From Pseudomonadota bacterium (lineage in GTDB: Bacteria > Pseudomonadota > Gammaproteobacteria > Xanthomonadales > Xanthomonadaceae), in assembly GCA_023423605.1 (NCBI GenBank), contig JAFAFF010000076.1, positions 1 to 20,235 of the forward strand: a stretch of 20,235 nucleotides of DNA, read 5' to 3'. The translations under genes and the position numbers were made by a program. Shown one piece after another: positions 4,122-20,235 of the stretch. Positions within the stretch are counted from its first letter, which is position 1. Every line of letters starts with the position of its first letter. A model generated the notes under the pieces. It did no database searches. It saw only the letters and a list, made by a program, of their open reading frames with translations, and was not told where the DNA came from.

Positions 4122-5081
4122 ATGGCCCGCCCGATCTGGACCGGTACCCTTTCCTTCGGCCTGCTCAACGTGCCGGTATCGCTGATGTCGGGCGAACGCC
4201 GTACCGACCTGCAGTTCCGCATGCTCGATTCCCGTGATCGCAAGCCGATCCGCTTTGAACGCGTCAATGCTGATACCGGCGAGGAAGTGCCGTGGAAGGA
4301 CATCGTCAAGGCATTCGAGTACGACAAGGGCAGCTATGTGGTGCTGGAAGAGGACGACATCCGTTCGGCCGCGCCGGAAAGCCATGAGACGGTGGAGGTG
4401 GAATCGTTCGTCGATGCAGCCCGCATCGACCCGCGCTACTTCGAGAAACCCTATCTGCTGGTGCCGGGCAAGAAGGCCGAGAAGGGCTATGTGCTGCTGC
4501 GCGAAACACTGCGCCGCACCGGCAAGGTCGGCATCGCCCGGGTGGTGGTACGCACGCGCGAATACCTGTGTGCGGTGATGCCCAACGAAGATGCGCTGGT
4601 GCTGATGATCCTGCGCTACCCACAGGAGCTGGTGGATCCGGAAGAGTACCGGTTGCCGGGTGGCAGCCTGTCCGACTACCGGATCAGCAGCAGGGAAACG
4701 GCGATGGCCGAGCAGCTGATCCAGTCCATGGCCGGCGAATGGGATCCGTCGCAGTACCACGATGAGTTCCGTGAACGCCTGCAGGGCATCCTGACCCGAC
4801 GCATCAAGCAGAAGGGCGGCACCACCACGGTGGAGGAAGAGCCGGTACCGCGCGAGGATGCGGCCACCAACGTGGTGGATTTCATGTCCCTGCTGCAGAA
4901 GAGCCTGGACGCCAATACGCGTACGCCGGCGAAGAAGGCCGCCGGCCGGACGACACGCAAGGCACCGGCCCGGCCTGCCAGGACGACGGCGAAGAAGAAC
5001 GCGAAACCGGCAAAGAAGGCGGCGAAGAAGGCACCGGCCAAGGCCGCGAAGAAGACTACCGCGCAACGCAGGGCGGGGTGA
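4122..5081 (+). CDS. ku: Ku, DNA end-binding protein of bacterial NHEJ
   Basis: Homodimeric ring protein that threads onto DNA double-strand ends and recruits LigD. The 319-aa product opens with ARPIWTGTLSFGLLNVPVSL, the classic bacterial Ku N-terminus. It continues with the core segments YDKGSYVVLEEDD, FVDAARIDPRYFEKPYLLVPGKK, GKVGIARVVVRTREYL and RETAMAEQLIQSM. Residues from about 266 to the end form a repetitive Lys/Ala/Pro tail (PAKKAAKKAPAKAAKK type). Such basic tails in known Ku proteins bind DNA and support LigD stimulation; this tail is longer than in minimal Ku proteins. ATG at 4122 has GGTGAG upstream. The stop is followed after 3 bases by ligD, so the two are one operon and probably translationally coupled. 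Confidence 0.97.
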   Translation: MARPIWTGTLSFGLLNVPVSLMSGERRTDLQFRMLDSRDRKPIRFERVNADTGEEVPWKDIVKAFEYDKGSYVVLEEDDIRSAAPESHETVEVESFVDAARIDPRYFEKPYLLVPGKKAEKGYVLLRETLRRTGKVGIARVVVRTREYLCAVMPNEDALVLMILRYPQELVDPEEYRLPGGSLSDYRISSRETAMAEQLIQSMAGEWDPSQYHDEFRERLQGILTRRIKQKGGTTTVEEEPVPREDAATNVVDFMSLLQKSLDANTRTPAKKAAGRTTRKAPARPARTTAKKNAKPAKKAAKKAPAKAAKKTTAQRRAG

Positions 5082-5084
5082 CCG

Positions 5085-7643
5085 ATGTCGCTGCAGCAGT
5101 ATCGCCGCAAACGCAGGCTGGGGGCCGGCACGGCGGGCACGCCGGAACCGGACGACGTGCCCGTGCCTGGCAATCCGGACCGGCGCCCGATCTTCGTGGT
5201 GCAACTGCACCATGCCAGTCATCGCCACTACGATTTCCGGCTGGAGATGGATGGCGTACTGAAGAGCTGGGCGGTACCGAAGGGGCCCTCGCTGCGGGTC
5301 GGCGAGAAGCGTCTGGCGGTGGAAGTGGAGGACCATCCACTGTCCTACGCGTCCTTCGAAGGCGATATCCCGGCAGGCCATTACGGCGCAGGCCACGTGG
5401 ATGTCTACGACCAGGGCCTCTGGGCCTGCGATGGCGATCCGCTGCAGGCGCTTGCCGCCGGCAAACTGGACTTCGTGCTGCACGGCAAGCGCCTGACAGG
5501 CGGCTGGAAGCTGGTGCGAACGGCCCTGAAGGGCCGTCAGCCGCAATGGCTGCTGATCAAGCGCGATGACGATGCGGCCCGCGATGCGGAGGCTGACGAC
5601 CTGCTGGCAGACGCATCCGGTGCGGGCGGTGGCGCGGCGGGCAGGGTGAACAAGGCCACACGGAAGGCGGTGAGCAAGCGCCCGCGCAGCGCCGTCGGCA
5701 GCGTGCCTGCCGGCCGCAGGAATGAGCACCGCTGGCACGCACGCGCGCTGGCGCTGCAAGGTGCACGCGACCGCCCTTATCCGCATGAGTATGCGCCGCA
5801 GCTGACCGATCATCGTGCCGTCGCGCCGAGTGGTGGACAGTGGCTGCATGAGATCAAATGGGATGGCTACCGGCTGCTCGCGGACCTGGCCGATGGCCAG
5901 GTGACGCTGCGTTCGCGCAACGGCCTGGACTGGAGCGGCGATTTTCCGGAAGTCACCCGCGCCATCGCCGCACTGCCGGTGCGGGACGCGCGCCTGGATG
6001 GCGAGCTGGTGGTGCTGGACGCGGACGGCCGCAGTGACTTCGCGGCCCTGCAACGCGTCATCGATGGCAGTTCGAAACAGCCCCTGCGGTATCTGGTGTT
6101 CGACATGCCGGGCGTGGCCGGTGTGGACATCAGCCAGGCGCCGCTGCAGCAGCGCAAGGCACTGCTGAAGCAGCTGCTGGGCGACAAGGTCGGTACGCTG
6201 GCCTGGAGCGATCACGTGGTCGGCCACGGCCCGGAGGTCTTTACCGCCAGCGGCAAGGCAGGCTTCGAAGGCATCGTCAGCAAGCGCCTGGACGCCGCCT
6301 ACGAAAATCGTCGTGCGCGTTCGTGGGTGAAGGTCAAACATGAGGACAGCGATGAATTCCTGATCGTCGGGCATACCCCGCCGAAAGGGGCGCGACAGGG
6401 ATTCGGATCGTTGCTGCTGGCGACCCCGGAAGGTTCCGGCCTGCGTTACGTGGGCCGCGTCGGCACCGGCTTCGATGACGAAAGGCTGCGCGCGCTGACG
6501 GCCGCATTGCAGGACCTGGCGGTGAAAAAGCCGCCGGTGGAATTGCCGGACCATGTTCCGTTCCGGGCAGCGAGCGTGCGCTGGGTGAAGCCCACCCTGG
6601 TCGCGGAGGTCGCCTTCCGGGGCTGGGGCAAGGAAGGACTGCTGCGCCAGGCCAGCTTCAAGCGGCTGCGCAGCGACAAATCGGCGCGCGACCTGGGCGT
6701 CGGGACGAAGGCCACGGCGGCCGCAGCGCCGCCATCGCGCACTCGGGCTGCCAGGGCAGCGTCGCCATCGAACGCTGGCGCGGAGGTGGCCGTGAGCCAT
6801 CCCGAGCGCGTGGTCTATCCGGCGTTGAAGCTGCGCAAGGGTGATGTGGCGGCGTACTACCACCAGATGGCGCCTTGGATCCTGCCGGAGATCGCCGGCA
6901 GGCCGCTGTCCTTGCTGCGCTGTCCGGATGGCGTCGGCAAGGCGTGCTTCTTCCAGAAACACCACGGCCAGGGCCTGGGCGACGCCGTGCACGCGGTGCC
7001 GCTGCGGCAGAAGAGCGGTACCGAAGATTACCTGTACATCGACGATGAAAGGGGCCTGCTGCAGCTGGTGCAGATGAATACCTTGGAGCTGCATCCCTGG
7101 GGTGCCACGGTTGCCGATCCCGAGCATGCCGATCGCCTGGTATTCGATCTGGACCCCGGTGAAGGTATCAGCTGGACGCAGATCAAGGCTGCTGCCCGCG
7201 ATGTGCGCGCCCACCTGCGTCAGGCAGGGCTGGAAAGTTTCGTGCGGCTCTCCGGGGGCAAGGGCCTGCACGTGGTGGCACCGCTGCGGCCGGCCGCACC
7301 CTGGGACCGGGCCAAGGCGTTCTGCGAAGCGTTCGCCCAGGCCATGGCCATGCGTGCGCCGGACTGTTACGTGGCCACCATGAGCAAGGCGCGGCGCAAG
7401 GGCGTGATCTTCATCGACTGGCTGCGCAATGCGCGTGGTGCCACCAGCGTCTGTTCCTGGTCGCTGCGGGCGCGGGAAAGCGCCGGCGTGGCCGTGCCAC
7501 TGCGCTGGGAAGAGCTGGCGCGGGTGCCGGCCGCCGACGCCTTTGCGCTGGACAAGGCGATGGCGCGGGCCAGACGCCTGAAGCAGGCGCCATGGGCCGG
7601 CATCGAAACGCTGCGCCAGACGTTGCCGGACTTCGACCGCTGA
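5085..7643 (+). CDS. ligD: LigD, three-domain NHEJ DNA ligase (phosphoesterase-ligase-polymerase)
   Basis: ATP-dependent end-joining enzyme of 852 aa working with Ku. The 3'-phosphoesterase domain (about 1-165) carries H42, H48, D50, R52, H84 and Y88, the same residue numbers I recall for the Pseudomonas aeruginosa enzyme. A basic Gly/Ala/Arg linker (about 170-225) follows. The ligase domain (about 230-540) has the adenylated lysine in EIKWDGYRL (K258), EGIVSKRLDA and WVKVKH. A second Ala-rich linker leads to the polymerase/primase domain (about 565-845) with the metal-binding pair in VFDLDPG (D688, D690), H729 in SGGKGLHV and the third carboxylate in FIDW (D778). No active-site loss is apparent. 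The domain order is the pseudomonad type, unlike mycobacterial polymerase-first LigD. It is convergent with the membrane-protein gene ending at 7665. Confidence 0.97.
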   Translation: MSLQQYRRKRRLGAGTAGTPEPDDVPVPGNPDRRPIFVVQLHHASHRHYDFRLEMDGVLKSWAVPKGPSLRVGEKRLAVEVEDHPLSYASFEGDIPAGHYGAGHVDVYDQGLWACDGDPLQALAAGKLDFVLHGKRLTGGWKLVRTALKGRQPQWLLIKRDDDAARDAEADDLLADASGAGGGAAGRVNKATRKAVSKRPRSAVGSVPAGRRNEHRWHARALALQGARDRPYPHEYAPQLTDHRAVAPSGGQWLHEIKWDGYRLLADLADGQVTLRSRNGLDWSGDFPEVTRAIAALPVRDARLDGELVVLDADGRSDFAALQRVIDGSSKQPLRYLVFDMPGVAGVDISQAPLQQRKALLKQLLGDKVGTLAWSDHVVGHGPEVFTASGKAGFEGIVSKRLDAAYENRRARSWVKVKHEDSDEFLIVGHTPPKGARQGFGSLLLATPEGSGLRYVGRVGTGFDDERLRALTAALQDLAVKKPPVELPDHVPFRAASVRWVKPTLVAEVAFRGWGKEGLLRQASFKRLRSDKSARDLGVGTKATAAAAPPSRTRAARAASPSNAGAEVAVSHPERVVYPALKLRKGDVAAYYHQMAPWILPEIAGRPLSLLRCPDGVGKACFFQKHHGQGLGDAVHAVPLRQKSGTEDYLYIDDERGLLQLVQMNTLELHPWGATVADPEHADRLVFDLDPGEGISWTQIKAAARDVRAHLRQAGLESFVRLSGGKGLHVVAPLRPAAPWDRAKAFCEAFAQAMAMRAPDCYVATMSKARRKGVIFIDWLRNARGATSVCSWSLRARESAGVAVPLRWEELARVPAADAFALDKAMARARRLKQAPWAGIETLRQTLPDFDR

Positions 7644-8131: not shown

Positions 8132-8770
8132 TCAGCCCGCCAGCGAGGCGGCCGCGCGGGCCAGCGATTCGATGGCATCCCAGTCGCGCGACTGCATCAG
8201 CGCCGCGGTGGTCAGCCACGAACCGCCCACGCACAGCACGTTCGGCAGGTGCAGGAACTGGGGCGCGGTCTGCGCGCTGATGCCACCGGTGGGGCAGAAG
8301 CGCACATCGCCGAACGGGCCGGCCCATGCCGAAAGCAGCGGCGCACCACCGGCCTGTACCGCAGGAAAGAACTTGAACGTATCCAGGCCCTGTTCCAGCC
8401 CCTGCATCAGCTCCGAAGAGGTGGCCACGCCGGGCAGGAACGGCAGGTCGACATCGCGTGCGGCGGCATACAGGCGCCCGGTCGCGCCCGGCGACACCGC
8501 AAAGCGGCCGCCGGCCTCCTTCACTGCCTGCATCTGCGCCGACGTCAGCACCGTGCCCGCGCCGACCACGGCATCCGGCACGGCCTCGGCCATGGCCTTG
8601 ATGGCCTCCATCGCGCGCGGCGTGCGCAGGGTTACTTCGATCACCGGCAGGCCGCCGCGGAACAGCGCCTGCGCCACCTGCACGGCGTCGTCGACATCGT
8701 CGGGGGTGAACACCGGGATCACCGGTGCAAGTTTCAGTACCGCACGAACGCGCGGATCAGCGCCGGACAT
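8132..8770 (-). CDS. eda: KDPG aldolase (2-dehydro-3-deoxyphosphogluconate aldolase)
   Basis: Cleaves 2-keto-3-deoxy-6-phosphogluconate to pyruvate and glyceraldehyde-3-phosphate in the cytoplasm, the last step of both the Entner-Doudoroff and uronate routes. The 212-aa product has the usual class I aldolase length. E45 lies in PVIEVTLRT, GAGTVLT follows, and the Schiff-base lysine is K133 in DTFKFFPA, the same numbers as in E. coli Eda. CPTGGI and the late VGGSWL form the phosphate-binding region. ATG at 8770 is preferred to TTG at 8773. The start lies inside the 3' end of the kinase gene (14-bp overlap), so the two are translationally coupled. Pairing with a KDG kinase rather than with edd suggests this copy serves sugar-acid catabolism. 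Confidence 0.96.
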   Translation of the reverse strand: MSGADPRVRAVLKLAPVIPVFTPDDVDDAVQVAQALFRGGLPVIEVTLRTPRAMEAIKAMAEAVPDAVVGAGTVLTSAQMQAVKEAGGRFAVSPGATGRLYAAARDVDLPFLPGVATSSELMQGLEQGLDTFKFFPAVQAGGAPLLSAWAGPFGDVRFCPTGGISAQTAPQFLHLPNVLCVGGSWLTTAALMQSRDWDAIESLARAAASLAG

Positions 8771-9776
8771 CAAAACGCTCCTCGCCCACCAGGGCCAGTA
8801 CGTCAGCTTCGCTGACAGGATTGAAATCGCCGGGGATGGAATGCTTCAGTCCACCGGCGGCCAGGCCGAAGCGCACGGTGGCGTCGGCATCCAGGCCCCG
8901 CATGATGCCATGCAGGATGCCGGCCGCGAATGCATCGCCGCCGCCGATGCGGTCGACGATGCCGCGCAGCTGGCGCACCGGCGCCTGCGCGCGCGTACCA
9001 TCGCGGCCGATCAACAGCGCGCCCAGCGCATGGTGATCCACGCTCAACGCCTGGCGCTGGGTGCAGGCCATCCAGCGCAGGTGCGGGAACGCAGCGAAGG
9101 CCGCCACGGCTGCTGCTTCGACGCGGGCGACCACGTCGTCCTGCACGAACGGCTGGCCCAGCACCACTTCGATATCGCGGTGATCGGCGAAGAGGATGTC
9201 CGCCTGTGCGAACAGCTCGCGCAGGATGCCCCTGGCGTCTCCGCCCCAGCGTTGCCAGAGGCTGGGCCGGAAGTTGCCGTCGAAGGACACACGCACCCCC
9301 AGCGTACGTGCCGTGCGCGCCGCTGCCAGGGCCGCCTGCGCCACATCCGGACCAAGTGCGGGACTGACCCCGGAAAGATGCAGCCAGTCCGCACCGGCGA
9401 GCAGCGTGGGCCAGTCATGGTCATCGGCGGTGCATTGCGCGAACGCCGAATCGACGCGGTCGTAGACCACTTCGCTGGCGCGCTGCACGGCGCCGGTCAC
9501 CAGGAAATACAGGCCCATGCGCGTGCCGGGCCGGCGCACGACGTGACGGGTATCCACCCCGTGCCGGCGCAGTTCGGCCAGCGCATGGGCGCCGAGCGGA
9601 TTGTCGGCCACGGTGCTGGCCATGGCCACATCGTGGCCGAAATGCGCCAGCGACACGCCGACGTTGGCTTCCGCGCCGCCGACATGCACCTCCAGCCGCG
9701 GCGTCTGCAGCAGCAGTTCGCGCCCCGGTGCACCCATCCGCAGCAGCAGTTCCCCGAAACACACGACTCGACTCAT
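8757..9776 (-). CDS. kdgK: 2-Keto-3-deoxygluconate kinase, PfkB family
   Basis: Phosphorylates KDG with ATP to KDPG, the substrate of the next gene. The 339-aa product is a ribokinase/PfkB fold: N-terminal VCFGELLLRM, substrate-side VGGAEANVGVSLAHFG, the KDG-kinase-like VSFDGNFRPSLW, and the nucleotide/catalytic motif VDRIGGGDAFAAG with catalytic base D281. ATG at 9776 has a good Shine-Dalgarno sequence (GAGGA seven bases before the start); a longer open frame to 9896 lacks comparable support. The gene overlaps eda downstream and is divergent from the TonB-dependent receptor at 10064. One of two matching operator-like sites lies 78 bp upstream of its start. Specificity for KDG rather than another 2-keto sugar acid is inferred from motif and the eda neighbour. 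Confidence 0.92.
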   Translation of the reverse strand: MSRVVCFGELLLRMGAPGRELLLQTPRLEVHVGGAEANVGVSLAHFGHDVAMASTVADNPLGAHALAELRRHGVDTRHVVRRPGTRMGLYFLVTGAVQRASEVVYDRVDSAFAQCTADDHDWPTLLAGADWLHLSGVSPALGPDVAQAALAAARTARTLGVRVSFDGNFRPSLWQRWGGDARGILRELFAQADILFADHRDIEVVLGQPFVQDDVVARVEAAAVAAFAAFPHLRWMACTQRQALSVDHHALGALLIGRDGTRAQAPVRQLRGIVDRIGGGDAFAAGILHGIMRGLDADATVRFGLAAGGLKHSIPGDFNPVSEADVLALVGEERFDVRR

Positions 9777-10063: not shown

Positions 10064-12805
10064 ATGAATTCACGTCACATCCGTAGAAAGACACCGGTTA
10101 CCCTGCTCGCCATGTCGATCGGCATGGCGCTGGGCGCCACCACCACGGCGAACGCGCAGCAGGCCGGCAATGCGACCGACCTGGGTACCATCACCGTCAC
10201 CGGATACCGCGCCAGCGTGGAAAAGGCCCTTGACATCAAGCGCGGCGAAGCCGGCGTGGTGGATGCCATCGTCGCCGAGGACATCGGCAAATTCCCGGAC
10301 CTCAACCTGGCCGAATCGCTGCAGCGCATTCCCGGCGTGGTGATCACCCGTGAAGCCGGTGAAGGCCGCAGCATCTCGGTGCGCGGCCTGGGCCCGGATT
10401 TCACCCGCGTGCGCATCAATGGCATGGAAGCACTGACCACGGTCGGTTCCGGCGACCAGAGCGGCGGCACCAACCGCGGCCGCGGCTTCGATTTCAACGT
10501 GTTCGCTTCGGACCTGTTCTCGCAGCTGGTGGTGCGCAAGACCGCCTCGGCCGATGTCGAGGAGGGTTCGCTGGGCGCCACCGTCGACCTGCGTACCGCC
10601 CGGCCGTTCGATTACGACGGCTTCACCTTCGCCGCCAGCGGCCAGGGCAGTTTCAATGACATGGCCGACAAGGCCGACCCGCGCGTGGCCGCGCTGGTGG
10701 CCAACACCTTCGCCGATGGCACCTTCGGCGCGCTGCTTTCGGTGGCCTACTCCGAACGCCAGGCGCTGGAGGAAGGCTCCAATACCGGCCGCTGGGCCAA
10801 CGGTCCCAGCAATGGTGGTTTCTCGCCGACCTCGCCGTTCGCCGAGGCCAACAGCGCCGATGTGTTCCACCCGCGTTTCCCGCGCTATGTGCAGATGGAG
10901 CACGAACAGAAGCGCCTGGGCGTCACCGGTTCGCTGCAATGGAAGCCGAGCGACCGTACCGAGATCTCGCTGGATGCGCTGTATTCGAAGATCGATGCCA
11001 CCCGTGATGAGAACTACATCGAGGCGATCTCCTTCAGCCGCTCCGGTGCCGGCAAGCCGCAGACCATCGTGCGCAACGGTGAGATCCGCGACAACGCGCT
11101 GCTGTACGGCGAGTTCGACAACGTGGACATCCGCGCGGAAAACCGCCACGACGAATGGAGTACCGAGTTCAAGCAGGTCAGCCTGAACCTGGAGCACCGT
11201 TTCAGCGACGCGTTCCAGGTGTCCGGCAGGCTCGGCACCTCGCGCTCGGCGCACGAGAACCCGGTGCAGACCACCATCATCATGGACAAGGCCGATGTGG
11301 ACGGCTACAGCTACGACTACCGTGGCAACCGCAACGCGCCGGTCATCAACTACGGCGTGGATCCGACCGATCCCAACGGCTGGACGCTGGCCGAAATCCG
11401 CCTGCGCCCGCAGTACGTGGACAATGATTTCGACACCGGCCAGATCGACTTCAACTGGAACATCAGCCCGGGCTTCCGCCTGAAGGGTGGCGTGCTGGCC
11501 AAGAACTACAGCTTCAGCACCACCGAACTGCGTCGTGCCAGCGAACTGGCCGTTCCCGAATTTCCCGGCGGCGGCACGCTGGTGCCGGCCGACTACACCC
11601 AGCCGGCCGGCCTGAAGGGCATGAATGGTTCGCCGTCCAGCTGGGTGGTACCGAACCTGGACGCGGTGGCTGATCTGTTCGATATCTACAGCAACAGCGG
11701 CACGTTTGCCGTCGCGCCGCGGCTGAACAACAGCCGCAGCGTGGAAGAGGAAGACCGTGGCGCCTACCTGATGGGTGAGTTCTCCACCGACCTCGGCTCC
11801 ATCCCGCTGTCGGGCAACGTCGGCGTGCGCTACGTGCGTACCAAGCAGGAGTCCACCGGCTACGCCACCATCGGCGGGGTACCGGCGCTGACCACCACCA
11901 GCCGGACCTACGATGACACCCTGCCATCGTTCAACCTGGTGGCCGAAGTGAGCCCGGACTTCCTGATCCGCCTGGGCGCGGCCAAGGTGATGACGCGCCC
12001 CGGACTGGGTCATCTGACGCCGGGCGTGACCGTGGCCGTGGCCGGCGGCGCGCGCACCGTGTCCGGCGGCAATCCGAACCTGGATCCGATCCGTGCCACC
12101 AACGTCAACCTGGGCTTTGAATGGTACTTCCAGGAAGGCGCGATGCTCGGCTTGGGCGTGTTCTACAAGGATATCGAATCCTTCGTGCAGACCACCCGCG
12201 AGATGCGCCCCTATTCCAGCAGCGGCCTGCCGGCCAGCCTGCTCGATGGCACCGGCGCGACGGTCAACGACGAGTTCACCTTCAGCATTCCGCTCAATAC
12301 TCCGGGCGGCGAGCTGCATGGCGTGGAAGCGAACTACACCCAGCCGTTCACGTTCCTGCCGGGCAAGTGGTCCAACCTCGGCGCGCAGCTGAACTACACC
12401 TGGGTGGAATCGAAGATCCAGTACCTCAACGGCCAGGGCCAGCCGGTGATGAAGACCGACCTGACCGGCCTGTCGAAGTCGTCGTGGAACGCCACGCTGT
12501 TCTACGAAGGAGAAACCTTCGCCGGACGCATCTCGGCGACCAACCGCGACGATTACCTGACCCAGGCACCGGGCCAGGAAACCGGGTTCAACCTGGACGG
12601 CTACCACGGCATGACCGGTACCACGGTCATCGATGCATCGCTGCGCTACAAGATCAGCGACCAGCTGGAACTGAGCCTGGAAGGCATCAACCTCACCAAC
12701 GAAGGCTCGGACGAGTGGGTGTATTCGCCGCTCACCGGTCGCCTGCCACTGCAGTACACCGAAACCGGACGCCAGTTCCTGCTGGGTGCACGCTACAAGT
12801 TCTGA
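10064..12805 (+). CDS. TonB-dependent receptor, Xanthomonas/Caulobacter type, probable oligosaccharide importer
   Basis: Outer-membrane active transporter of 913 aa. A signal peptide ends near TTANA (residue 31). A TonB-box-like LGTITVTGYR follows at 40-49, and the plug reads AEDIGKFPDLNLAESLQRIPG and SISVRGLGPDFTRVRINGME, the pattern of the TonB-Xanth-Caul family (TIGR01782). The barrel ends in FLLGARYKF, with the terminal aromatic residue needed for outer-membrane assembly. ATG at 10064 has a purine-rich binding site (GGGAGAGGGAAAGG). Members of this family typically import glycan fragments and are encoded beside the degrading enzymes. Here the gene is divergent from kdgK-eda and followed by a large secreted protein, so a uronate-containing substrate is inferred. 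The substrate itself cannot be read from the sequence. Confidence 0.93.
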   Translation: MNSRHIRRKTPVTLLAMSIGMALGATTTANAQQAGNATDLGTITVTGYRASVEKALDIKRGEAGVVDAIVAEDIGKFPDLNLAESLQRIPGVVITREAGEGRSISVRGLGPDFTRVRINGMEALTTVGSGDQSGGTNRGRGFDFNVFASDLFSQLVVRKTASADVEEGSLGATVDLRTARPFDYDGFTFAASGQGSFNDMADKADPRVAALVANTFADGTFGALLSVAYSERQALEEGSNTGRWANGPSNGGFSPTSPFAEANSADVFHPRFPRYVQMEHEQKRLGVTGSLQWKPSDRTEISLDALYSKIDATRDENYIEAISFSRSGAGKPQTIVRNGEIRDNALLYGEFDNVDIRAENRHDEWSTEFKQVSLNLEHRFSDAFQVSGRLGTSRSAHENPVQTTIIMDKADVDGYSYDYRGNRNAPVINYGVDPTDPNGWTLAEIRLRPQYVDNDFDTGQIDFNWNISPGFRLKGGVLAKNYSFSTTELRRASELAVPEFPGGGTLVPADYTQPAGLKGMNGSPSSWVVPNLDAVADLFDIYSNSGTFAVAPRLNNSRSVEEEDRGAYLMGEFSTDLGSIPLSGNVGVRYVRTKQESTGYATIGGVPALTTTSRTYDDTLPSFNLVAEVSPDFLIRLGAAKVMTRPGLGHLTPGVTVAVAGGARTVSGGNPNLDPIRATNVNLGFEWYFQEGAMLGLGVFYKDIESFVQTTREMRPYSSSGLPASLLDGTGATVNDEFTFSIPLNTPGGELHGVEANYTQPFTFLPGKWSNLGAQLNYTWVESKIQYLNGQGQPVMKTDLTGLSKSSWNATLFYEGETFAGRISATNRDDYLTQAPGQETGFNLDGYHGMTGTTVIDASLRYKISDQLELSLEGINLTNEGSDEWVYSPLTGRLPLQYTETGRQFLLGARYKF

Positions 12806-13014: not shown

Positions 13015-16000
13015 ATGCCGTACCGTTCATCCGCTGTCGCCGGTCCGCTGCGCCGCCTGCTCACCTTCGCCCTCGCGCTGTGCGCCGCACCGGCGCTGGC
13101 GGACACGCCGCCGACGCTGCTGTTCCATGTCGATGCGGACCACGGACTACAGGCCGTGGTCGCCCACGGCGAGCCGGTGCCGAACTTCCGCGACAAGGTG
13201 ACGGTGGTCGATGATGGCCCGCGCGGCAAGGCCATCCAGTGGGAAGACGATGGCGTGCTGTCGTGGGATGCGCCGGGCAACATCCTGGCCCAGCGCGGCA
13301 CCCTGGCGTTTGACTGGCGGCCGCGATACGCCGTGGGCGAGGCTCCGTTCGTGATCTTCCGGGTCGGCTACGCCGACCACAGCAGCTGGGACATGGCCTG
13401 GCTGCGCATCGACTGGAACGGGCACGGCTTCGATGCCTTCGTCACCGATGCCAACCTGGCGCGCACCCGGGTGTCGTTCGCACTGCCGCGGAACCCGCGC
13501 CCCGACCAATGGATGCACCTGGCCTTCTCCTGGGATGAAGAGCAGGGTGTGCGCCTGTCCATCGATGGCCGCGAAGTGGCGCGTGCGCAGGCCACCGGCG
13601 ACTACGACGCCGCCCTGGACCAGCTCGGCCTTGCCGGCCGCGTGATGGCGCCCTACCGGGTGCAGAGCCGCTACAATTTCCTGCGCGGCAGCGATTTCCA
13701 GCACATCCGCGTCTACGATCGCATGCTCGATGCGTCGGCGGTGGCTGCACTGGCGCGCGGCAGCGATGCCTCCACCACCGTACAGTTGCCGGCCGACGAA
13801 CGCGCCTGGCGCCATCGGTTCGGCTGGGAAGGCGCCGCGCCACCGGTGCTGGCTGCGGCCGGCACGCGCATCCGCAAGGTGGAATTCGCCGATACCCGCG
13901 ACCTGAAGCAATGGATGTGGAAGGCCACCGACGGCATCGCCGAGACCACCTGGCCGGGCGTCTACAACCGCTCGCGGCTGCCAGGCCGCAACGACTACTT
14001 CCAGTTGCCGGACTGGAATACCTATGTGGAAGGCGGCCGGCACCTGGACCTGACCCTGCCCGATGGGGAAACGGTGAACCGCGTGGAGGTGCGTGGCGCG
14101 GCCTTCGGCACACTGGCCCATGGCGCCGACGCCGCCAGCGCCGGCACCGTGCTGCTGCGCCGGCCCCGCGGCGTGGTGCGCAGCGTGGATGACATCCCCG
14201 CCACCCGCGGCGGTGTGCTGCGCTTTTCCAACGTGGAACAGGAAACCCCGATCCAGGAGATATGGGCATACCACGTGGAGAAAGGCGCCGAGCCGGAAGG
14301 AAGCGTCAAACAGACCTACTTCATCGACAGCCAGGCACAGCCGGACTACACCAACCTGGAAGCGCTGCGTCGCTATATCGACGGCCGCTACCCGCAGGCC
14401 GAACGCAGCATGGTGATGGCCCTGCCCAAGGGCGCCGGTTCGCGTCGGCGCAGCGCCGACAGCCTGCCCGCGCAGCCGCGGCCCATCGTCCATGTGCTGG
14501 TGCCCTCCGGCGTGGGCGACGCACCGGCGGACCAGCCGCTGATCCGCAGTTGGGCGTACAGCTGGGAAAACATGCATGACGGCCTGGATGGCGTGGCCAT
14601 CGACCTGCCGGCGCTGGATCTGCCGGCAACACACGATGGACTGATTCCGCTGGACATCCGCATCAAGGATCCGATCTGGCCGGCACGCGACATGATCGAT
14701 GTGTCGGTCTCGGTGCCGCTGGGGCAGAAGCGTACCGTGTTCCTGGACCTGCGCGACCGCATCCTGACCGCCGACAGCCTGTGGCTGAGCATCGCCTCGG
14801 CCGCGCCCGGCTTCAACGCGCAGGCGCTGGATGGCGCGGCCATCCGCATGGTGTTCAAGCCACGCGCCGAGGCCATCGGCGAACATGTCGCCGACCGCTT
14901 CAACCAGGTGCGCGACAACTGGGGTTTCCTGGTGGAAGAGCACACCACCTCCAAGCGCCAGCGCCTGTACGCACGCGTGTATGCCGATCTCAGCGACCTG
15001 CTGCGGGTCGACCCGGACCATGCGCTCGGCCGCCTGTACTGGAACTACATCAGCTACAACAGCCAGGGCAGGCCGCCGTTCACCGCGCCGGAGGTTCCCG
15101 CCGGCGTGCCGGCCTGGGCGTTCAACCAGGTGCAGGACCTGAAATACGTACGGCGCTTCGTCGACTGGTGGATCGACAACCGCCAGGTGGCCTACGGCGA
15201 TTTCGGCGGTGGCATCTCCGATGATTCCGACCTGACCCAGCAGTGGCCCGGACTGGCGCTGATGGGGGTGCAGCCGGACCGCCTCAATGCCTCGCTGACC
15301 GCGCTGTCCGACGCGATCTACCGCAATGGCATGTTCAGCAATGGTCTGAGCACCATCGAGACCGATGAACTGCACTCCTACGAGGAAGGCATCAACGCCA
15401 ACAGCGCGATGCTGTACCTCAACTGGGGCGACCCGCTCACCATCGAGCGCCTGATGGAAACGGTGAAGGCCTTCGACGAGAAGATCATCCTGCGCAACCC
15501 GCAGGGCCATGTGCTGTTTTCCAGCAACTGGTTCGGTGGCAACAAGGTGTATCGCGAACCGAACTGGCAGTGGCAGAAGCCGTATTCGTTCCCGGTGCTG
15601 CACCCTGCCTTCCTGCTCGGCCAGTACAACGCCGACGCCACCGGCCGCAGGCTGGTGACCGGCCTGGCCGACGGCTACCTGGCCCACGCCGGCACCGACG
15701 TCAGCGGCCGCTTCACCCTGCCCAACGAGATCAACTGGGCGACCGGTGCGACCCGTGGCGGCGAGCTCAACAACGGTTCCGGCAGCGGCGACATCATGCA
15801 CACCTTCTGGGCGGCGTGGCGCTGGACCGGCGATGCGAAGTACCTGCAGGCGCTGGACTACCGCGTGGCGCGTGGTGGTCCCGGGGCGCTGGCCAACCTG
15901 GGCGAGAATTACGTCGAGGTACTGGGCCGGCAGCAGGACTGGTACCCGGGGCTGATCGCCGATGCCGATGCGGGCAGGACCGGATTCGCCAGCCTGATGG

Positions 16001-16851
16001 CATGGCAGGCCACCGGTGACATGAAGTACATCGCCGCACTGCACGCCGATGGCATCCAGGCCAAGGCACAGCGCGAATACATGAACACCGAAGGCCACTG
16101 GTGGTCCGATCGCGTGGAGGCACCCAGCGAGTTCCTGCAGCGTGCGCGCCTGGGCGGCATCGCCCTGAAGCGCAACCAGAGCTGGCCGGGACACACGGTG
16201 AGCTGGCGTTTCGCGCACGATGGCGATGCCGAACAGGTGGCGCTGCTGGTGCACGCACCGTCGCGGGAACGCTTCACCATCACCAGCCACAATCTTGGCC
16301 GGCAGGTGATCGATGCCGACATGACCGGCTGGAACGTGGCCGGCGGTACCTGGCGCGTGCGCAGCGGCGTGGATGCCGACGGCGATGGCCGCATCGATGG
16401 CCGCGCACGCGAGCAGGAGATGCTGCTGGAGACCAGCGTCAGCACGCCACTGCGGTTCCAGCCCGGAAAGACCGAGGTGTTCGAGTTCGAGCGGATCGCA
16501 GCGGGAACCCCGGTGCAACAGCGCGCCGATCTCGGCATCGGTCGTGGCGATGTGCGTGTGGATGGACGCCAGGTGCATGTCACCGTGCACAGCCTGGGCC
16601 ATGTGGGCACCGGCGTGGGCGTGGCGGTACTGGAAGATGCACATGGCCGGGAGATCGCGCGGACCGAGGTGCCGGCGATGGACGCTCCCGCCGACCTGCT
16701 GCCGAGGACCACCCGGGTGTCGCTGCCGCTGCCGGCCGGCGACCGCGACAGCCTGCGCGTGCGCGTGCTGCTGGCCGACGATGGTGAGGAAGTGACACGG
16801 CTCAACAACAGGGTCGACGTGCCGACCGACGATCGGCACCCACCACGCTGA
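13015..16851 (+). CDS. Large secreted protein: LamG-like domain plus probable alpha/alpha-toroid carbohydrate-active core
   Basis: A 1278-aa exported protein with a signal peptide ending APALA-D (residue 29). Residues about 60-245 look like a LamG/concanavalin-type jelly roll (GTLAFDWRP, WDMAWLRIDWNG, QWMHLAFSWDEEQGVRLSIDG, HIRVYDRMLD). A middle beta-rich region follows. From about 620 to 1040, Trp/Tyr-rich helical segments resemble six-hairpin toroid enzymes such as polysaccharide lyases and unsaturated-uronyl hydrolases. Notable motifs are YGDFGGGISDDSDLTQQWPG (727-746), ETDELHSYEEGINANS (from 782) and EINWATGATRGGELNN (from 905). D1120-x-D-x-D-G-x-I-D1128 resembles a calcium-binding loop. 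ATG at 13015 has GGAAGG upstream. Context with kdgK, eda and a glycan receptor suggests uronic-acid polysaccharide degradation. I recognise no catalytic family, so hydrolase versus lyase is open. The last residues lie in a repeat. Confidence 0.8.
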   Translation: MPYRSSAVAGPLRRLLTFALALCAAPALADTPPTLLFHVDADHGLQAVVAHGEPVPNFRDKVTVVDDGPRGKAIQWEDDGVLSWDAPGNILAQRGTLAFDWRPRYAVGEAPFVIFRVGYADHSSWDMAWLRIDWNGHGFDAFVTDANLARTRVSFALPRNPRPDQWMHLAFSWDEEQGVRLSIDGREVARAQATGDYDAALDQLGLAGRVMAPYRVQSRYNFLRGSDFQHIRVYDRMLDASAVAALARGSDASTTVQLPADERAWRHRFGWEGAAPPVLAAAGTRIRKVEFADTRDLKQWMWKATDGIAETTWPGVYNRSRLPGRNDYFQLPDWNTYVEGGRHLDLTLPDGETVNRVEVRGAAFGTLAHGADAASAGTVLLRRPRGVVRSVDDIPATRGGVLRFSNVEQETPIQEIWAYHVEKGAEPEGSVKQTYFIDSQAQPDYTNLEALRRYIDGRYPQAERSMVMALPKGAGSRRRSADSLPAQPRPIVHVLVPSGVGDAPADQPLIRSWAYSWENMHDGLDGVAIDLPALDLPATHDGLIPLDIRIKDPIWPARDMIDVSVSVPLGQKRTVFLDLRDRILTADSLWLSIASAAPGFNAQALDGAAIRMVFKPRAEAIGEHVADRFNQVRDNWGFLVEEHTTSKRQRLYARVYADLSDLLRVDPDHALGRLYWNYISYNSQGRPPFTAPEVPAGVPAWAFNQVQDLKYVRRFVDWWIDNRQVAYGDFGGGISDDSDLTQQWPGLALMGVQPDRLNASLTALSDAIYRNGMFSNGLSTIETDELHSYEEGINANSAMLYLNWGDPLTIERLMETVKAFDEKIILRNPQGHVLFSSNWFGGNKVYREPNWQWQKPYSFPVLHPAFLLGQYNADATGRRLVTGLADGYLAHAGTDVSGRFTLPNEINWATGATRGGELNNGSGSGDIMHTFWAAWRWTGDAKYLQALDYRVARGGPGALANLGENYVEVLGRQQDWYPGLIADADAGRTGFASLMAWQATGDMKYIAALHADGIQAKAQREYMNTEGHWWSDRVEAPSEFLQRARLGGIALKRNQSWPGHTVSWRFAHDGDAEQVALLVHAPSRERFTITSHNLGRQVIDADMTGWNVAGGTWRVRSGVDADGDGRIDGRAREQEMLLETSVSTPLRFQPGKTEVFEFERIAAGTPVQQRADLGIGRGDVRVDGRQVHVTVHSLGHVGTGVGVAVLEDAHGREIARTEVPAMDAPADLLPRTTRVSLPLPAGDRDSLRVRVLLADDGEEVTRLNNRVDVPTDDRHPPR
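16819..16846. repeat. SMAG/REP-like palindrome overlapping the 3' end of the large secreted-protein gene
   Basis: GTGCCGA and TCGGCAC pair around seven bases, followed by CCCACCAC. The same layout (GTGCCGACC, 3 bases, GGTCGGCAC, CCACCAC) occurs twice at 17022-17092. The element encodes most of the last ten residues of the protein and lies just before its stop codon at 16849. Confidence 0.65.
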
Positions 16852-16968: not shown

Positions 16969-17021
16969 GTTGGTCGAGGCGTCGGCGCGCCGCGCCGTGC
17001 ATCCCGCAGCCGGTTGACCGC

Positions 17022-17092
17022 GGTGCCGACCAGCGGTCGGCACCCACCACATCCCGGTCCCGACCAGCGGTCGGCACCCACCACATCCCGGT
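17022..17092. repeat. Tandem pair of palindromic repeats, 34-bp period
   Basis: Bases 17026-17058 recur exactly at 17060-17092. The first copy contains a perfect 10-bp stem GGTGCCGACC / GGTCGGCACC with a 3-base loop. The second copy has lost the outer part of its left arm. Both carry the CCACCAC flank also seen at 16839-16846. The element belongs to the SMAG/REP-like class and ends 20 bp before the stop codon of the dioxygenase gene. Confidence 0.85.
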
Positions 17093-17112: not shown

Positions 17113-17700
17113 TCAGGCCGCGTCGGTTTCCATCCGTTTTACCCGGCGCTGGTACCAGCCAGCGCCCAGCGGATCGAACACGGCACTGCGCTCCATCGGC
17201 GCCTGGTACACATGTACCGATACCGCCGGATGCTGGTCACTGGCGTTGCGCAGCACATGATGTTCATGCGGCGGAATCAGGCAGCCGGCGGTGCCGCGCA
17301 TGCCGTACAGCGCATCCTGCGGCGCGAAACGGAACCGATCGCCGTCGCGCTCCAGCAGGGAATAAGGCGTTACGACCAGTTCGCCCTGCCAGATGCCTTC
17401 CACGCACCACAGATCATCGTGGTCATGCAGCGGCGTGCCCTGGCCGGGCCCCCAGCACATGGCGATCACGCTGTAGCCCAGCTCGGCACTGCGGTGCAGC
17501 TCGCGGCGCGCATAACGACCTGCCAGCGGGCGCCCCACGCAGGGCGGCAGGACGATCCGCGGATCGGCGATCGCCTCGCGCAGCACCTTCTTCAAGGCGC
17601 GCGTAACCAACCGCGGATCGCATAGTCCCACCGCTGCGTCCATCGCGTCGATCAGGTGCTGACGTCCGCGGAACTGTAGTGGTGCCGTTGTTTCTCCCAT
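17113..17700 (-). CDS. Cysteine-dioxygenase-family thiol dioxygenase (cupin)
   Basis: Cytoplasmic non-heme iron enzyme that adds O2 to a thiol, giving a sulfinate such as cysteine sulfinic acid. The 195-aa product has the cupin motif GPGQGTPLHDHDDLWCVEG with iron ligands H92 and H94. The third histidine lies in PPHEHHVLRN (H145 or H147), and a tyrosine is present in HVYQAP (Y165). C99 falls five residues after H94, the spacing of the mammalian Cys93 that crosslinks to a tyrosine; many bacterial members have glycine there. Substrate (cysteine or 3-mercaptopropionate) is undecided. ATG at 17700 lacks a clear Shine-Dalgarno sequence. The upstream region is AT-richer and carries a 15-bp palindrome. 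It is convergent with the large secreted-protein gene, and no functional link to it is evident. Confidence 0.85.
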   Translation of the reverse strand: MGETTAPLQFRGRQHLIDAMDAAVGLCDPRLVTRALKKVLREAIADPRIVLPPCVGRPLAGRYARRELHRSAELGYSVIAMCWGPGQGTPLHDHDDLWCVEGIWQGELVVTPYSLLERDGDRFRFAPQDALYGMRGTAGCLIPPHEHHVLRNASDQHPAVSVHVYQAPMERSAVFDPLGAGWYQRRVKRMETDAA

Positions 17701-17849: not shown

Positions 17850-19475
17850 TCAGAACGTGCCCCGCTGGATGAAGGGTGCCTGCCCGTACAGCTCACGCTC
17901 GCCGCCGCGCGGATCATCGACGAGCGTGCTGCGGCGATCGAACAGCAGGGTCTGCCGGCGCGGCAGGCTGTAGGGCTCCCAGTGTGGCAGCCCGGCATGG
18001 TTGGGGTCGCCGTGGCGCGCGAAGGCGATCAGCGCATCGCTCATCGTCGCGGCCAGCGCGCGTGCATCATCACCGTCGCCGGTACGGGAACCGGGCAGGC
18101 CGGCATTGTCGAACACCAGTGGAATGTCCAGGGTGTGGAATGCCCCCAGCCTGCCGCCCTGCAGCGGCGAACCCCAGTCCAGCTGGTAGGCCCAGGTGGG
18201 CGCGGCCCCCGCTGCCTGGCGCGCGCGGGCTTCCAGTTCTTCCACCGCCCCACGCCAGGAGCGGCCGGCCGTGGTGGCCGCAAAGAACACCTGCGATGGC
18301 GTGTAGTGCGGATACAGCCGACGGTAGCCGGTGATGATCCGTTCCGGCCGCAGGTCCACGTACTGTTCCCTTTCCAGCTTCGCCGGCAGCGATTCCCAGG
18401 TCAGCGCGAAGTTGGCCGGATCGTTGCCGAGGAACGCACGGGTCTCATCATGGGTGTTGCCGATCACCATGGGAATGCCGGCCGATTGTGCCGGCGCCTG
18501 TGGCCAGAACGGATGTGCGGGCAGCACCACGTCATCCAGTACCGGACCGAAATACAGGCCGGTGTCTTCCACCCGCGAAGGATCGCGTACCCGGGTGGCG
18601 GCCAGCAGGTCGGTGGCCGACAGCCGCAGCAGGTCGCCTGCGTCGGCCGCGCCCACCGCCTGCATCGCGATCGTCGCGCGCTGCGCCGCGGCCCGCGGGC
18701 CCGCCGCGGTCACCTGCTGGCCACTCATCGTCCAGGCACGATGGAACAGACCCCGCGCAGCGGGCATCGCCATCAGCGTGGCGATCTTGGCGCCACCGCC
18801 GGACTGGCCGAACACGGTGATGTTGTCCGCGTCTCCGCCGAACGTGGCGGCGTGTTCGCGCACCCACTGCAGTGCCTGCACCAGGTCGAGCTGGCCGACA
18901 TTGCCGGATGCGGCCAGGCGTGGATCGCCGCGGTCGCCCAGATACAGGTAGCCGAACACGTTGAGCCGATGGTTGACGGTGACCACCACCACGTCACCGC
19001 GCTGGCACAGCGCGCTGCCGTCATACAGCGGATCGCTGCCGGAACCATTGTTGAAGCCGCCGCCATGGATGTAGACCAGGATGGGCCGCCTGCCGCCATC
19101 GCCGAGCGCGGGCGTCCAGACGTTGAGGAACAGACAGTCCTCGCTGCCGGGGCCCTCGCCGCCGCCCTGCGGAGCGGCGTTGCCGAAGGCAAGCGCGTCG
19201 GCGATGCCACGCCATGCGGCCTCGCGGCGCGGCGGCTGGAAACGGCAACCGGCGGTATCGGCGCCGTAGCGCAGGCCGCGGAACACGTTGATGCCGTGTT
19301 CGCGCTGGCCACGCACGCGGCCACCGCGCACCCGCGCCAGTACCTGCCGGTCGGCGCGCGGGGTGGGCGCGGCGAATGCCTGCGGCAGCAGGGACGCCGT
19401 GGATGCGGCCAGTGCCCAGCGCGCACTGTCGCGCAGGAAACGGCGACGCTGCTGGTCGGCACGTGGGTCATTCAT
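17850..19475 (-). CDS. Carboxylesterase type B with Tat-type signal
   Basis: Alpha/beta-hydrolase of 541 aa that hydrolyses carboxyl esters, probably outside the cytoplasm. The N-terminus RRRFLRDSARWALAAST resembles a twin-arginine signal, with cleavage likely near AFAAP (residue 36). Seen: SEDCLFLNVWTP (family signature), the HGGG oxyanion motif (137-140), the nucleophile in FGQSGGG (S225), the acid region in NTHDETRAFLG and the base in FHTLDIPLVF. The nucleophile elbow GQSGGG departs from the common GESAGG. ATG at 19475 has GAGGA upstream and overlaps the preceding esterase gene by 8 bp, so the two form an operon. Substrate is unknown; acylated plant or microbial glycans are possible given the neighbouring uptake locus. 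It is followed by 149 bp holding the dioxygenase promoter. Confidence 0.93.
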   Translation of the reverse strand: MNDPRADQQRRRFLRDSARWALAASTASLLPQAFAAPTPRADRQVLARVRGGRVRGQREHGINVFRGLRYGADTAGCRFQPPRREAAWRGIADALAFGNAAPQGGGEGPGSEDCLFLNVWTPALGDGGRRPILVYIHGGGFNNGSGSDPLYDGSALCQRGDVVVVTVNHRLNVFGYLYLGDRGDPRLAASGNVGQLDLVQALQWVREHAATFGGDADNITVFGQSGGGAKIATLMAMPAARGLFHRAWTMSGQQVTAAGPRAAAQRATIAMQAVGAADAGDLLRLSATDLLAATRVRDPSRVEDTGLYFGPVLDDVVLPAHPFWPQAPAQSAGIPMVIGNTHDETRAFLGNDPANFALTWESLPAKLEREQYVDLRPERIITGYRRLYPHYTPSQVFFAATTAGRSWRGAVEELEARARQAAGAAPTWAYQLDWGSPLQGGRLGAFHTLDIPLVFDNAGLPGSRTGDGDDARALAATMSDALIAFARHGDPNHAGLPHWEPYSLPRRQTLLFDRRSTLVDDPRGGERELYGQAPFIQRGTF

Positions 19476-20235
19476 GGGAAGTGTCCTCACTGCCCTGCAG
19501 CCAGCGTTGCGCAAGCAATGGCCACAGGGCCGTGGTCGAACCGTCCGGAGCGCGCATGCCGAAGCCATGGCCGCCCCGCGCGAAGACGTGCAGTTCGTGC
19601 TGCACGCCCTGCGCGGCCAGCGCCTGCGCCATCAACAGGCTGTTGTCCACGCTGACCACGTCATCATCGGCGGCATGCAGCAGCAGCGTTGGCGGCATGT
19701 CACCGCGCACCTGGCGCTGCATGGAATAACGCGCGACCAATGCGGCATCCGCATCGGCGCCCAGCAGGCGCTGCCGCGAACCCGGGTGCGCCTGCCCGCC
19801 CATGTCGATCACCGGGTAGACCAGCATCGCCCGCGCCGGCCGTGCGCTGATACGGTCGGTCGCATCGGTGGCCGGATAGACCGGAGCGTCGAAGCCGGTG
19901 GCCAATCGCGCTGCCACATGTCCCCCCGCGGAGAATCCCATCACCGCCACGCTGTCGGCCTGCAGGCCGCGCTGCGCCGCCTGCGCGCGGATCAGCCGCA
20001 TCGCCCGCTGGGCATCGGCCAGCGCGGCCTGGCGGTCGCGCGCCGCTTCCGGCAGCCGGTAGCGCAGCACGAACAGCGTGTAGCCGGCGCGGTCGACCCA
20101 GTCGGGCACCAGTTCGCTGCCTTCGCGGTCGATCACCACCCGCTGGTAGCCACCGCCGGGAATCACCAGCAGCGCGCGGCCATTCGGGTGTGCCGGGGCA
20201 TGTACCACCAGCCAGGGGGCATCCACCTGGTCCAC
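19468..20235 (-). CDS. Alpha/beta-hydrolase (BD-FAE/acetyl-esterase-like), 5' end cut by the window
   Basis: The visible 255 residues cover almost a whole small esterase. Seen: the oxyanion motif VIPGGGYQRVV, the nucleophile serine in GFSAGGHVAARLA, the acid aspartate in HAADDDVVS and the base histidine in GGHGFGMR. This is the layout of the bifunctional feruloyl/acetyl-xylan esterase and acetyl-esterase group. The GTG at 20235 is the edge of the window and need not be the real start; a signal peptide may lie beyond it. The stop (19470-19468) overlaps the start of the carboxylesterase gene, so both are read from one message. Activity on glycan acetyl or feruloyl esters is inferred from the family only. 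Confidence 0.88.
   Translation of the reverse strand: MDQVDAPWLVVHAPAHPNGRALLVIPGGGYQRVVIDREGSELVPDWVDRAGYTLFVLRYRLPEAARDRQAALADAQRAMRLIRAQAAQRGLQADSVAVMGFSAGGHVAARLATGFDAPVYPATDATDRISARPARAMLVYPVIDMGGQAHPGSRQRLLGADADAALVARYSMQRQVRGDMPPTLLLHAADDDVVSVDNSLLMAQALAAQGVQHELHVFARGGHGFGMRAPDGSTTALWPLLAQRWLQGSEDTSHE

Follow-up and report, generated by a model that had tools for sequence, protein, structure and literature searches.

A protein of 1278 amino acids encoded on a stretch of Xanthomonadaceae DNA appears to replace a PL1-type pectate lyase in pectin loci. The stretch, referred to here as the window, comprises positions 1 to 20,235 of contig JAFAFF010000076.1 (assembly GCA_023423605.1). The protein, which combines a signal-like N-terminus, a LamG domain and a predicted (alpha/alpha)6 toroid, is referred to as the LamG-toroid protein. 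We slightly favor the interpretation that it is an oligogalacturonide or pectate lyase that feeds KduI; that it is an enzyme of pectin catabolism in the broader sense, an estimate that adds in the first two alternatives weighed below, is highly probable.

The strongest result of our analysis is the swap between the two genes. We found a PL1-type homologue in 17 of the 18 KduI loci that lack the LamG-toroid gene, beside genes for an FAH-like protein and a TRAP transporter; the eighteenth (G835) lies on a 6.7-kb contig and is uninformative. The 430-aa representative of this PL1-type gene matches PDB entry 9buj, 'Pectate lyase', with an E value of 4.8e-24, and matches the Pfam model PF00544 weakly. 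The gene was found in none of the 14 KduI loci that carry the LamG-toroid gene, as judged from fetched stretches that all hold the FAH-like gene and that, in Xanthomonas-like genomes, do not span all of the bases between KduI and LamG (tens of kb apart). It was also absent from 107 LamG-bearing stretches, a number that includes overlaps and many stretches too short to reach the FAH-like gene. Among 46 loci with genes for DctP, DctM, a carboxylesterase and the FAH-like protein, 11 contained the PL1-type gene, 35 contained LamG, and none contained both. Another open reading frame (ORF) of about 450 aa (L117:13523) proved not to be a PL1-type relative (22% identity) and was not counted. These data indicate that loci with the LamG-toroid gene dispense with the PL1-type gene.

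Two locus trees, of 31 loci and of 30 of the 46 loci just described, separate the LamG loci cleanly from the PL1-type loci. Midpoint rooting nests the LamG loci within the PL1-type loci; on this rooting, LamG would be the later state.

The link to the pathway was assessed in 99 sampled genomes of the family, 15 of which contain LamG, with matches over cut-off counted. KduI was present in 32 genomes: 14 of the 15 with LamG and 18 of the 84 without it (Fisher p 1.5e-7, kinship ignored). In all 14 genomes with both, KduI lies on the LamG contig, about 8 to 62 kb away. The same survey found PL10 in 10 genomes (5 of 15 with LamG, 5 of 84 without), PL1 in 15 (6 and 9), GH28 in 8 (5 and 3), and GH88/105 in 3 (2 and 1). 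PL22 exceeded its cut-off in none of the 99, with three matches below it, and PL9 was found in none of the 15 genomes with LamG. Five genomes with LamG and KduI had no match to PL1, PL10, PL22, GH28 or GH88/105; PL2, PL3, PL11 and PL26 were not searched, and PF00544 misses the PL1-type gene. The argument that these genomes would otherwise miss an enzyme was at first weakened by seven genomes without LamG that have KduI and none of PL1, PL10, GH28 and GH88/105. We found that all seven carry the PL1-type homologue, unseen by the PF00544 genome search.

The substrate of KduI is a product that arises after uronate lyases, and free galacturonate requires UxaC in its usual route. UxaC was found in 15 of the 99 genomes (8 of 15 with LamG, 7 of 84 without). 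KduI is present in all but one of the seven LamG genomes that lack UxaC; this makes it less likely that free galacturonate is the main product, the UxaC route being the only one examined.

The LamG-toroid protein belongs to a conserved family, beyond chance. Of 7989 candidates scored, 1581 proved homologous at E<=1e-3; among the matches listed, the best 120 of the 1581 and those of the L087 search described below, public-record names are mostly LamG domain or hypothetical. All but one of 158 pattern hits on genome contigs encode a relative, and 80 of these 157 loci were kept for locus comparison. Selection of LamG ORFs from the loci omitted one on the minus strand (L086), nine loci with a stop in the extended translation, ORFs of less than 1200 aa, and loci at least 82% identical to one already chosen. 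Across 48 aligned sequences, mean column identity is 64%. A search from a divergent member (L087) listed, among others, relatives named Caulobacter, Sphingomonas, Novosphingobium and Nitrospirillum. At E<=0.001, LamG matched 4 of 369 genomes sampled from the class and 7 of 398 sampled from the phylum; the samples overlap, and one match in each (G156, G695) is only short and weak. In the literature searched, which left out most subscription papers, we found no description of the family. Two records carry odd names. One member (P0032) is publicly named 'baseplate J-like protein', which looks wrong: Pfam Baseplate_J matches 3 of the 24 members of our alignment A1, with a best E value of 0.046. 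A record titled Bacillus subtilis SK7B5 (L017) holds a Stenotrophomonas-like LamG locus, at 78% identity, and is probably contamination or mislabelled.

In the window, we confirmed the ORF at the position given in an earlier note made from the sequence alone: it begins with an ATG at 13015 and ends with a TGA at 16849-16851. A ribosome-binding-like stretch, AAGGAAGG, precedes this ATG; the start chosen by the mechanical ORF caller is a GTG 57 bases upstream. The gene and the parts of its product are as follows.

13015..16851, forward strand: exported-looking LamG-toroid protein, 1278 aa, proposed pectate/oligogalacturonide lyase (ORF, Pfam, homologues, predicted fold)
13015..13101, forward strand: Sec-type signal peptide, residues 1-29 (by eye)
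14332..14862, forward strand: mainly beta region ahead of the toroid helices, residues about 440-616 (predicted structure)
15112..16155, forward strand: predicted (alpha/alpha)6 toroid, residues about 700-1047 (predicted structure)
15196..15234, forward strand: motif GDFGGGISDDSDL, residues 728-740, loop into inner helix 1 (alignment, 48 sequences)
15358..15390, forward strand: motif ETDELHSYEEG, residues 782-792, start of inner helix 2 (alignment, 48 sequences)
16090..16119, forward strand: motif EGHWWSDRVE, residues 1026-1035, loop into inner helix 6 (alignment)
16198..16503, forward strand: C-terminal beta sandwich following the toroid, residues about 1062-1163 (predicted structure)

The N-terminus resembles, by eye, a Sec-type signal peptide that ends with ALA, before DTPP. 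Residues 96-244 match Laminin_G_3 (PF13385; E 2e-7, 31.7 bits against a gathering cut-off of 27.6), a domain matched in all 24 members of A1, window included (Pfam, E<=10). Besides this domain, the window protein had no match at E<=1 in Pfam, NCBIfam or PDB sequences. The Pfam models of PL22, PL10 (PF09492), PL1, GH28 and GH88/GH105 did not match it, and no GH76 model matched it (Pfam and NCBIfam) or the A1 members (Pfam). Eight families were matched in the Pfam scan of A1 (24 members, E<=10), with no polysaccharide lyase (PL) or glycoside hydrolase (GH) among them. A profile of the 48 sequences, compared with PDB sequences, gave a weak match to the LamG domain (E 0.0067 and 0.0043), a chance-like ribosomal protein, and nothing else. 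The earlier note had described an exported-looking protein of LamG and toroid build that belongs to no recognized catalytic family; both parts of this description are borne out, the second in Pfam, NCBIfam and PDB sequences.

The toroid is a confident prediction: the model of the core, residues 440-1180, has a mean pLDDT of 87.9 and a pTM of 0.84, and 12 helices in residues 700-1047 were assigned to six hairpins. In a fold search with the whole protein (VIA-align), the rows listed cover the LamG jelly roll alone, and the core was then folded separately. The jelly roll matches clostridial neurotoxin binding domains, their non-toxic partners, and AbnA; the neurotoxin matches reflect a shared lectin-like fold and are no hint of toxicity. 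The core matches GH76, GH88, GH105, GH47 and AGE structures among the 50 PDB matches listed. A Foldseek search of PDB with the core gave two matches at E<=0.001, a virus tail protein and a complement protein, which we rejected as chance-like, and the core found nothing in BFVD at E<=0.001.

Both GDFGGGISDDSDL, at residue 728, and ETDELHSYEEG, at 782, are present as the earlier note had reported, and its numbering of D729, D736, D737, H787, Y789 and E790 is correct. These six residues are invariant in 48 of 48 aligned sequences (window included) and sit at or near the outer-to-inner loops of toroid hairpins 1 and 2. This supports their proposal as the active site, though weakly: invariance does not set them apart, because between 600 and 1050 a further 48 polar or aromatic residues never vary, 54 in all (overall invariant share, 18%). 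D739 of the first motif and D784 and E785 of the second are invariant in the 48 sequences, as are H1028, W1029, W1030, D1032 and R1033 of EGHWWSDRVE. Judged from the alignment, D739, D784, E785, R723, K855, H1028, D1032 and R1033 are equally good candidates for the active site. The loops that lead to inner helices 1, 2 and 6 form the conserved mouth. For helix 1, 60% of the loop and 67% of the helix's first half are invariant; for helix 2, the value for the first half is 67%, and for helix 6, that for the loop is 50%. Hairpins 3-5 are more variable. The note had also named three findings that would speak against its proposal; we found no clear match to a characterized family with a non-uronate substrate, and found instead a predicted toroid and conserved residues.

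The toroid mouth holds seven invariant acids (D729, D736, D737, D739, D784, E785 and E790), which would suit a hydrolase or a metal-assisted lyase without deciding between them. The protein could be a hydrolase of the same substrate, either a GH88/GH105-like unsaturated-uronyl hydrolase that trims the chain end left by a pectate lyase, or an enzyme of exo-polygalacturonase type that uses an Asp pair. Its GH76/GH88/GH105-like predicted fold and acidic mouth make this the main alternative, which we consider unlikely rather than negligible. A lyase is favored through the pathway and the swap, not through the fold.

The genes around LamG support the pectin assignment. Those in the window are the following.

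10064..12805, forward strand: TonB-dependent receptor (TIGR01782), 209 bp upstream of the LamG-toroid gene (NCBIfam)
8757..9776, reverse strand: PfkB sugar kinase, KdgK-like (Pfam, NCBIfam)
8132..8773, reverse strand: KDPG/KHG aldolase (eda), overlapping the kinase gene (ORF, Pfam, NCBIfam)
17850..19568, reverse strand: carboxylesterase, a conserved locus member found in 39 of 80 loci (Pfam)
19468..20235, reverse strand: BD-FAE esterase, probably cut by the window end (Pfam, NCBIfam)

The kdgK-eda pair and the receptor described earlier are thus present by Pfam and NCBIfam, upstream of LamG. The name kdgK rests on PfkB, on kinase models below cut-off and on the overlap with eda; the gene passes the cut-off of no kinase equivalog model. 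The best NCBIfam model of the BD-FAE esterase is pectin acetylesterase PaeX, at 275 bits, below the 550 cut-off. A KdgK-like relative at >=50% identity is present in 75 of 80 LamG loci. A wider count used 86 loci, a few of which are represented twice (L081, for instance, comes from the L001 genome), with each gene family named from one Pfam-scanned representative; L084 and L088 carry no LamG gene. The counts are lower bounds, since many loci end at contig ends or at the 10-kb flank: at least 80 loci have the TonB-dependent receptor, 74 kdgK, 40 DctP, 39 the carboxylesterase, 32 PL10, 29 eda, 28 GH43, 21 pectinesterase, and 17 a GDSL esterase. The PL10 and pectinesterase representatives match Pfam at E 1e-122 and 2e-59. 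A 277-aa gene ahead of DctP (L001:17405-18238 and relatives) is present in at least 39 of the 86. It has no Pfam or NCBIfam match; 'FAH-like' is our own label, and its PDB matches, to 4-oxalocrotonate decarboxylase/2-oxopent-4-enoate hydratase, are weak (E 0.007-0.035). In S. tumulicola (L001/L108), which is closely related, the cluster runs on as TRAP - GH43 - LacI - KduI - KduD - GDSL/cupin, and KduI (404 bits, cut-off 250) and KduD (411, cut-off 339) pass the NCBIfam equivalog cut-offs. The uronate-catabolic setting proposed earlier therefore holds, and the wider locus narrows 'uronate glycan' to pectin. The earlier list of possible substrates, which included alginate, heparin, hyaluronan, xanthan and gum arabic, was not supported in its breadth: the substrate-informative neighbors identified indicate pectin, except for a fucosidase near one Nitrospirillum copy.

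Four other features of these loci were noted. A GDSL esterase-cupin fusion beside KduD (L108:12074-13177) is weakly similar to pectin acetylesterase PaeY. A cysteine dioxygenase-family gene (PF05995) lies mid-locus at 17113-17700 and is present in at least 22 of the 86 loci. Downstream of LamG, at 17021-17088, are two tandem 34-nt inverted-repeat copies with a GGTCGGCACC core, and a 74% copy at 16817-16850 overlaps the last LamG codons; they resemble Stenotrophomonas REP-like elements. Upstream, 4122-7643 encodes an end-joining pair, Ku and LigD (ligase, phosphoesterase and primase-polymerase domains), unrelated to LamG.

The same neighborhood might suggest an enzyme for another part of pectin, such as rhamnogalacturonan I or decorated or acetylated stretches, that would not feed KduI directly. 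GH43, GDSL and acetylesterase-like neighbors and the AbnA-like fold of the LamG domain fit this alternative; however, we recognized no rhamnose-breakdown gene among the scanned neighbors, which are only part of all, and it is kdgK and the TonB-dependent receptor that accompany LamG most consistently. We judge it distinctly unlikely. Less probable again is a non-catalytic glycan-binding or transport partner of the receptor. The LamG domain would suit such a role, as would the presence of a receptor relative (>=50% identity) in 77 of the 80 loci, but the toroid spans 350 residues and carries invariant D/E/H/Y/R/W clusters where loops lead into inner helices 1, 2 and 6, an arrangement that resembles an active site. 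Action on a non-pectic glycan, to which the Caulobacter-type and Nitrospirillum members without recognized uronate genes alongside and the fucosidase gene near LamG in Nitrospirillum locus L073 would point, is very improbable given the pectin genes throughout the Xanthomonadaceae loci and the divergent uronate locus L091. That locus (G574), whose LamG protein is 58% identical to that of the window, reads LacI - UxaC - KduI - KduD-like - kdgK - esterase - TonB-dependent receptor - esterase - DUF885 - LamG.

Published work on Xanthomonas bears on the lyase interpretation. In X. campestris, XCC0120-XCC0122 form a receptor-pectinesterase-pectate lyase block, and XCC0120 is induced by polygalacturonate, according to the available parts of the reports (PMC1790865, PMC3551730). 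We found a block of this type between the first TonB-dependent receptor and LamG in several Xanthomonas loci. By analogy with these loci, the LamG gene would follow XCC0120-XCC0122 in X. campestris, and XCC0119 would be the counterpart of the window receptor.

Several observations weigh against a lyase that feeds KduI and took the place of the PL1-type enzyme. On both locus trees the exchange is one event, and the independent switches that we had hoped for were not found; the exclusivity counts therefore amount to a single observation. The search for the PL1-type gene covered fetched stretches rather than whole genomes, and PF00544 misses the gene, so that a copy elsewhere in LamG genomes is possible. 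One genome (G166) has LamG but no KduI match. The closest toroid folds listed are hydrolases, epimerases and uncharacterized proteins, with no lyase among them. Toroid lyases of the PL8, PL15, PL17, PL21 and PL26 types do not appear in the 50 matches listed for the core, an absence that does not exclude a similar fold. The invariant share is hardly biased toward the catalytic face (0.208 versus 0.167 for loops, 0.198 versus 0.177 for helix halves), and we dropped the idea of such a bias across the whole toroid; hairpins 1, 2 and 6 alone stand out. Beside LamG in the Caulobacter-type locus (L089/L090), all of the locus families are missing, and the five neighbors scanned are unrelated; in Nitrospirillum loci L072 and L073 we found no other window gene, and the three neighbors scanned there are two chemotaxis receptors and, at L073, the fucosidase. 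XCC0119 is not among the three polygalacturonate-induced receptor genes given for X. campestris in the available text of that report (PMC1790865). Finally, the part available of a 2015 study (PMC4686621) reports no pectate-lyase halo on polygalacturonate plates for X. arboricola CFBP 2528 and a halo for two strains with homologues of XCC0121 and XCC0122. In CFBP 2528 (L048), the LamG ORF is open (1298 aa), and the PL10/pectinesterase block is not annotated. Unless the gene is unexpressed, this reported result counts against secretion of an endo-lyase and would suit an oligomer-cleaving enzyme in the periplasm.

We propose the following model for an oligogalacturonide or pectate lyase. The LamG-toroid protein would be exported, most likely to the periplasm, where its LamG domain would hold the glycan. 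The acidic-mouthed toroid would cleave oligogalacturonides or pectate by beta-elimination, presumably in an exo or oligomer-directed mode. The unsaturated galacturonate released would give 4-deoxy-5-keto-uronate, which would be imported by the TRAP transporter and then pass through KduI, KduD, KdgK and Eda. In the Xanthomonas/Stenotrophomonas/Pseudoxanthomonas/Luteimonas lineage, the LamG protein would substitute for the PL1-type pectate lyase of sister lineages. We put forward more tentatively, at somewhat less than an even chance, a fuller proposal: the protein would be the first of a new family of polysaccharide lyases, a LamG-(alpha/alpha)6-toroid pectate/oligogalacturonide lyase whose cleft is acidic and may bind metal; it would have displaced the PL1-type lyase once in Xanthomonadaceae and would now provide, in Stenotrophomonas and Xanthomonas, the missing link from extracellular pectinases to KduI. 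The model gives a large conserved family a testable function. If true, it would fill the step from oligogalacturonide to KduI substrate in widespread plant-associated bacteria, and would provide an example of one enzyme fold supplanting another within a conserved pathway.

How does the protein compare with known systems? PL22 oligogalacturonate lyase shares the role proposed here, the final oligogalacturonide cut before KduI; its fold is a beta propeller, unlike the predicted toroid. PL10 pectate lyase, whose fold is helical, acts on polygalacturonate and neighbors LamG in the loci counted above (at least 32 of 86), although the LamG protein has no PF09492 match; because both genes co-occur, the two probably act at different steps. 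GH88/GH105 unsaturated uronyl hydrolases are a single barrel domain without LamG and have no sequence match to the protein. GH76 alpha-1,6-mannanases give the top fold Z among the matches listed to the LamG core (14.9; 4.1 A over 284 residues, 9% identity). They too have an adjacent Asp pair, and D736-D737 of the core, invariant in the 48 sequences, might occupy the equivalent place in the barrel; mannan, their substrate, is ill-suited to the LamG locus. The make-up of the XCC0120-XCC0122 polygalacturonate locus matches that of the block in several Xanthomonas LamG loci, and the LamG gene is not mentioned in the available part of its published account (PMC1790865, PMC3551730). The PL1-type homologue (L120:14754-16043, the relative of PDB 9buj) differs from the LamG protein in being about 430-480 aa and homologous to pectate lyase, and the LamG-family profile does not match it. 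PL1-type pectate lyases fold as a parallel beta helix. The two genes were found together in no stretch searched, and the PL1-type gene has the neighbors of the LamG locus: TRAP, KduI, KduD and kdgK.

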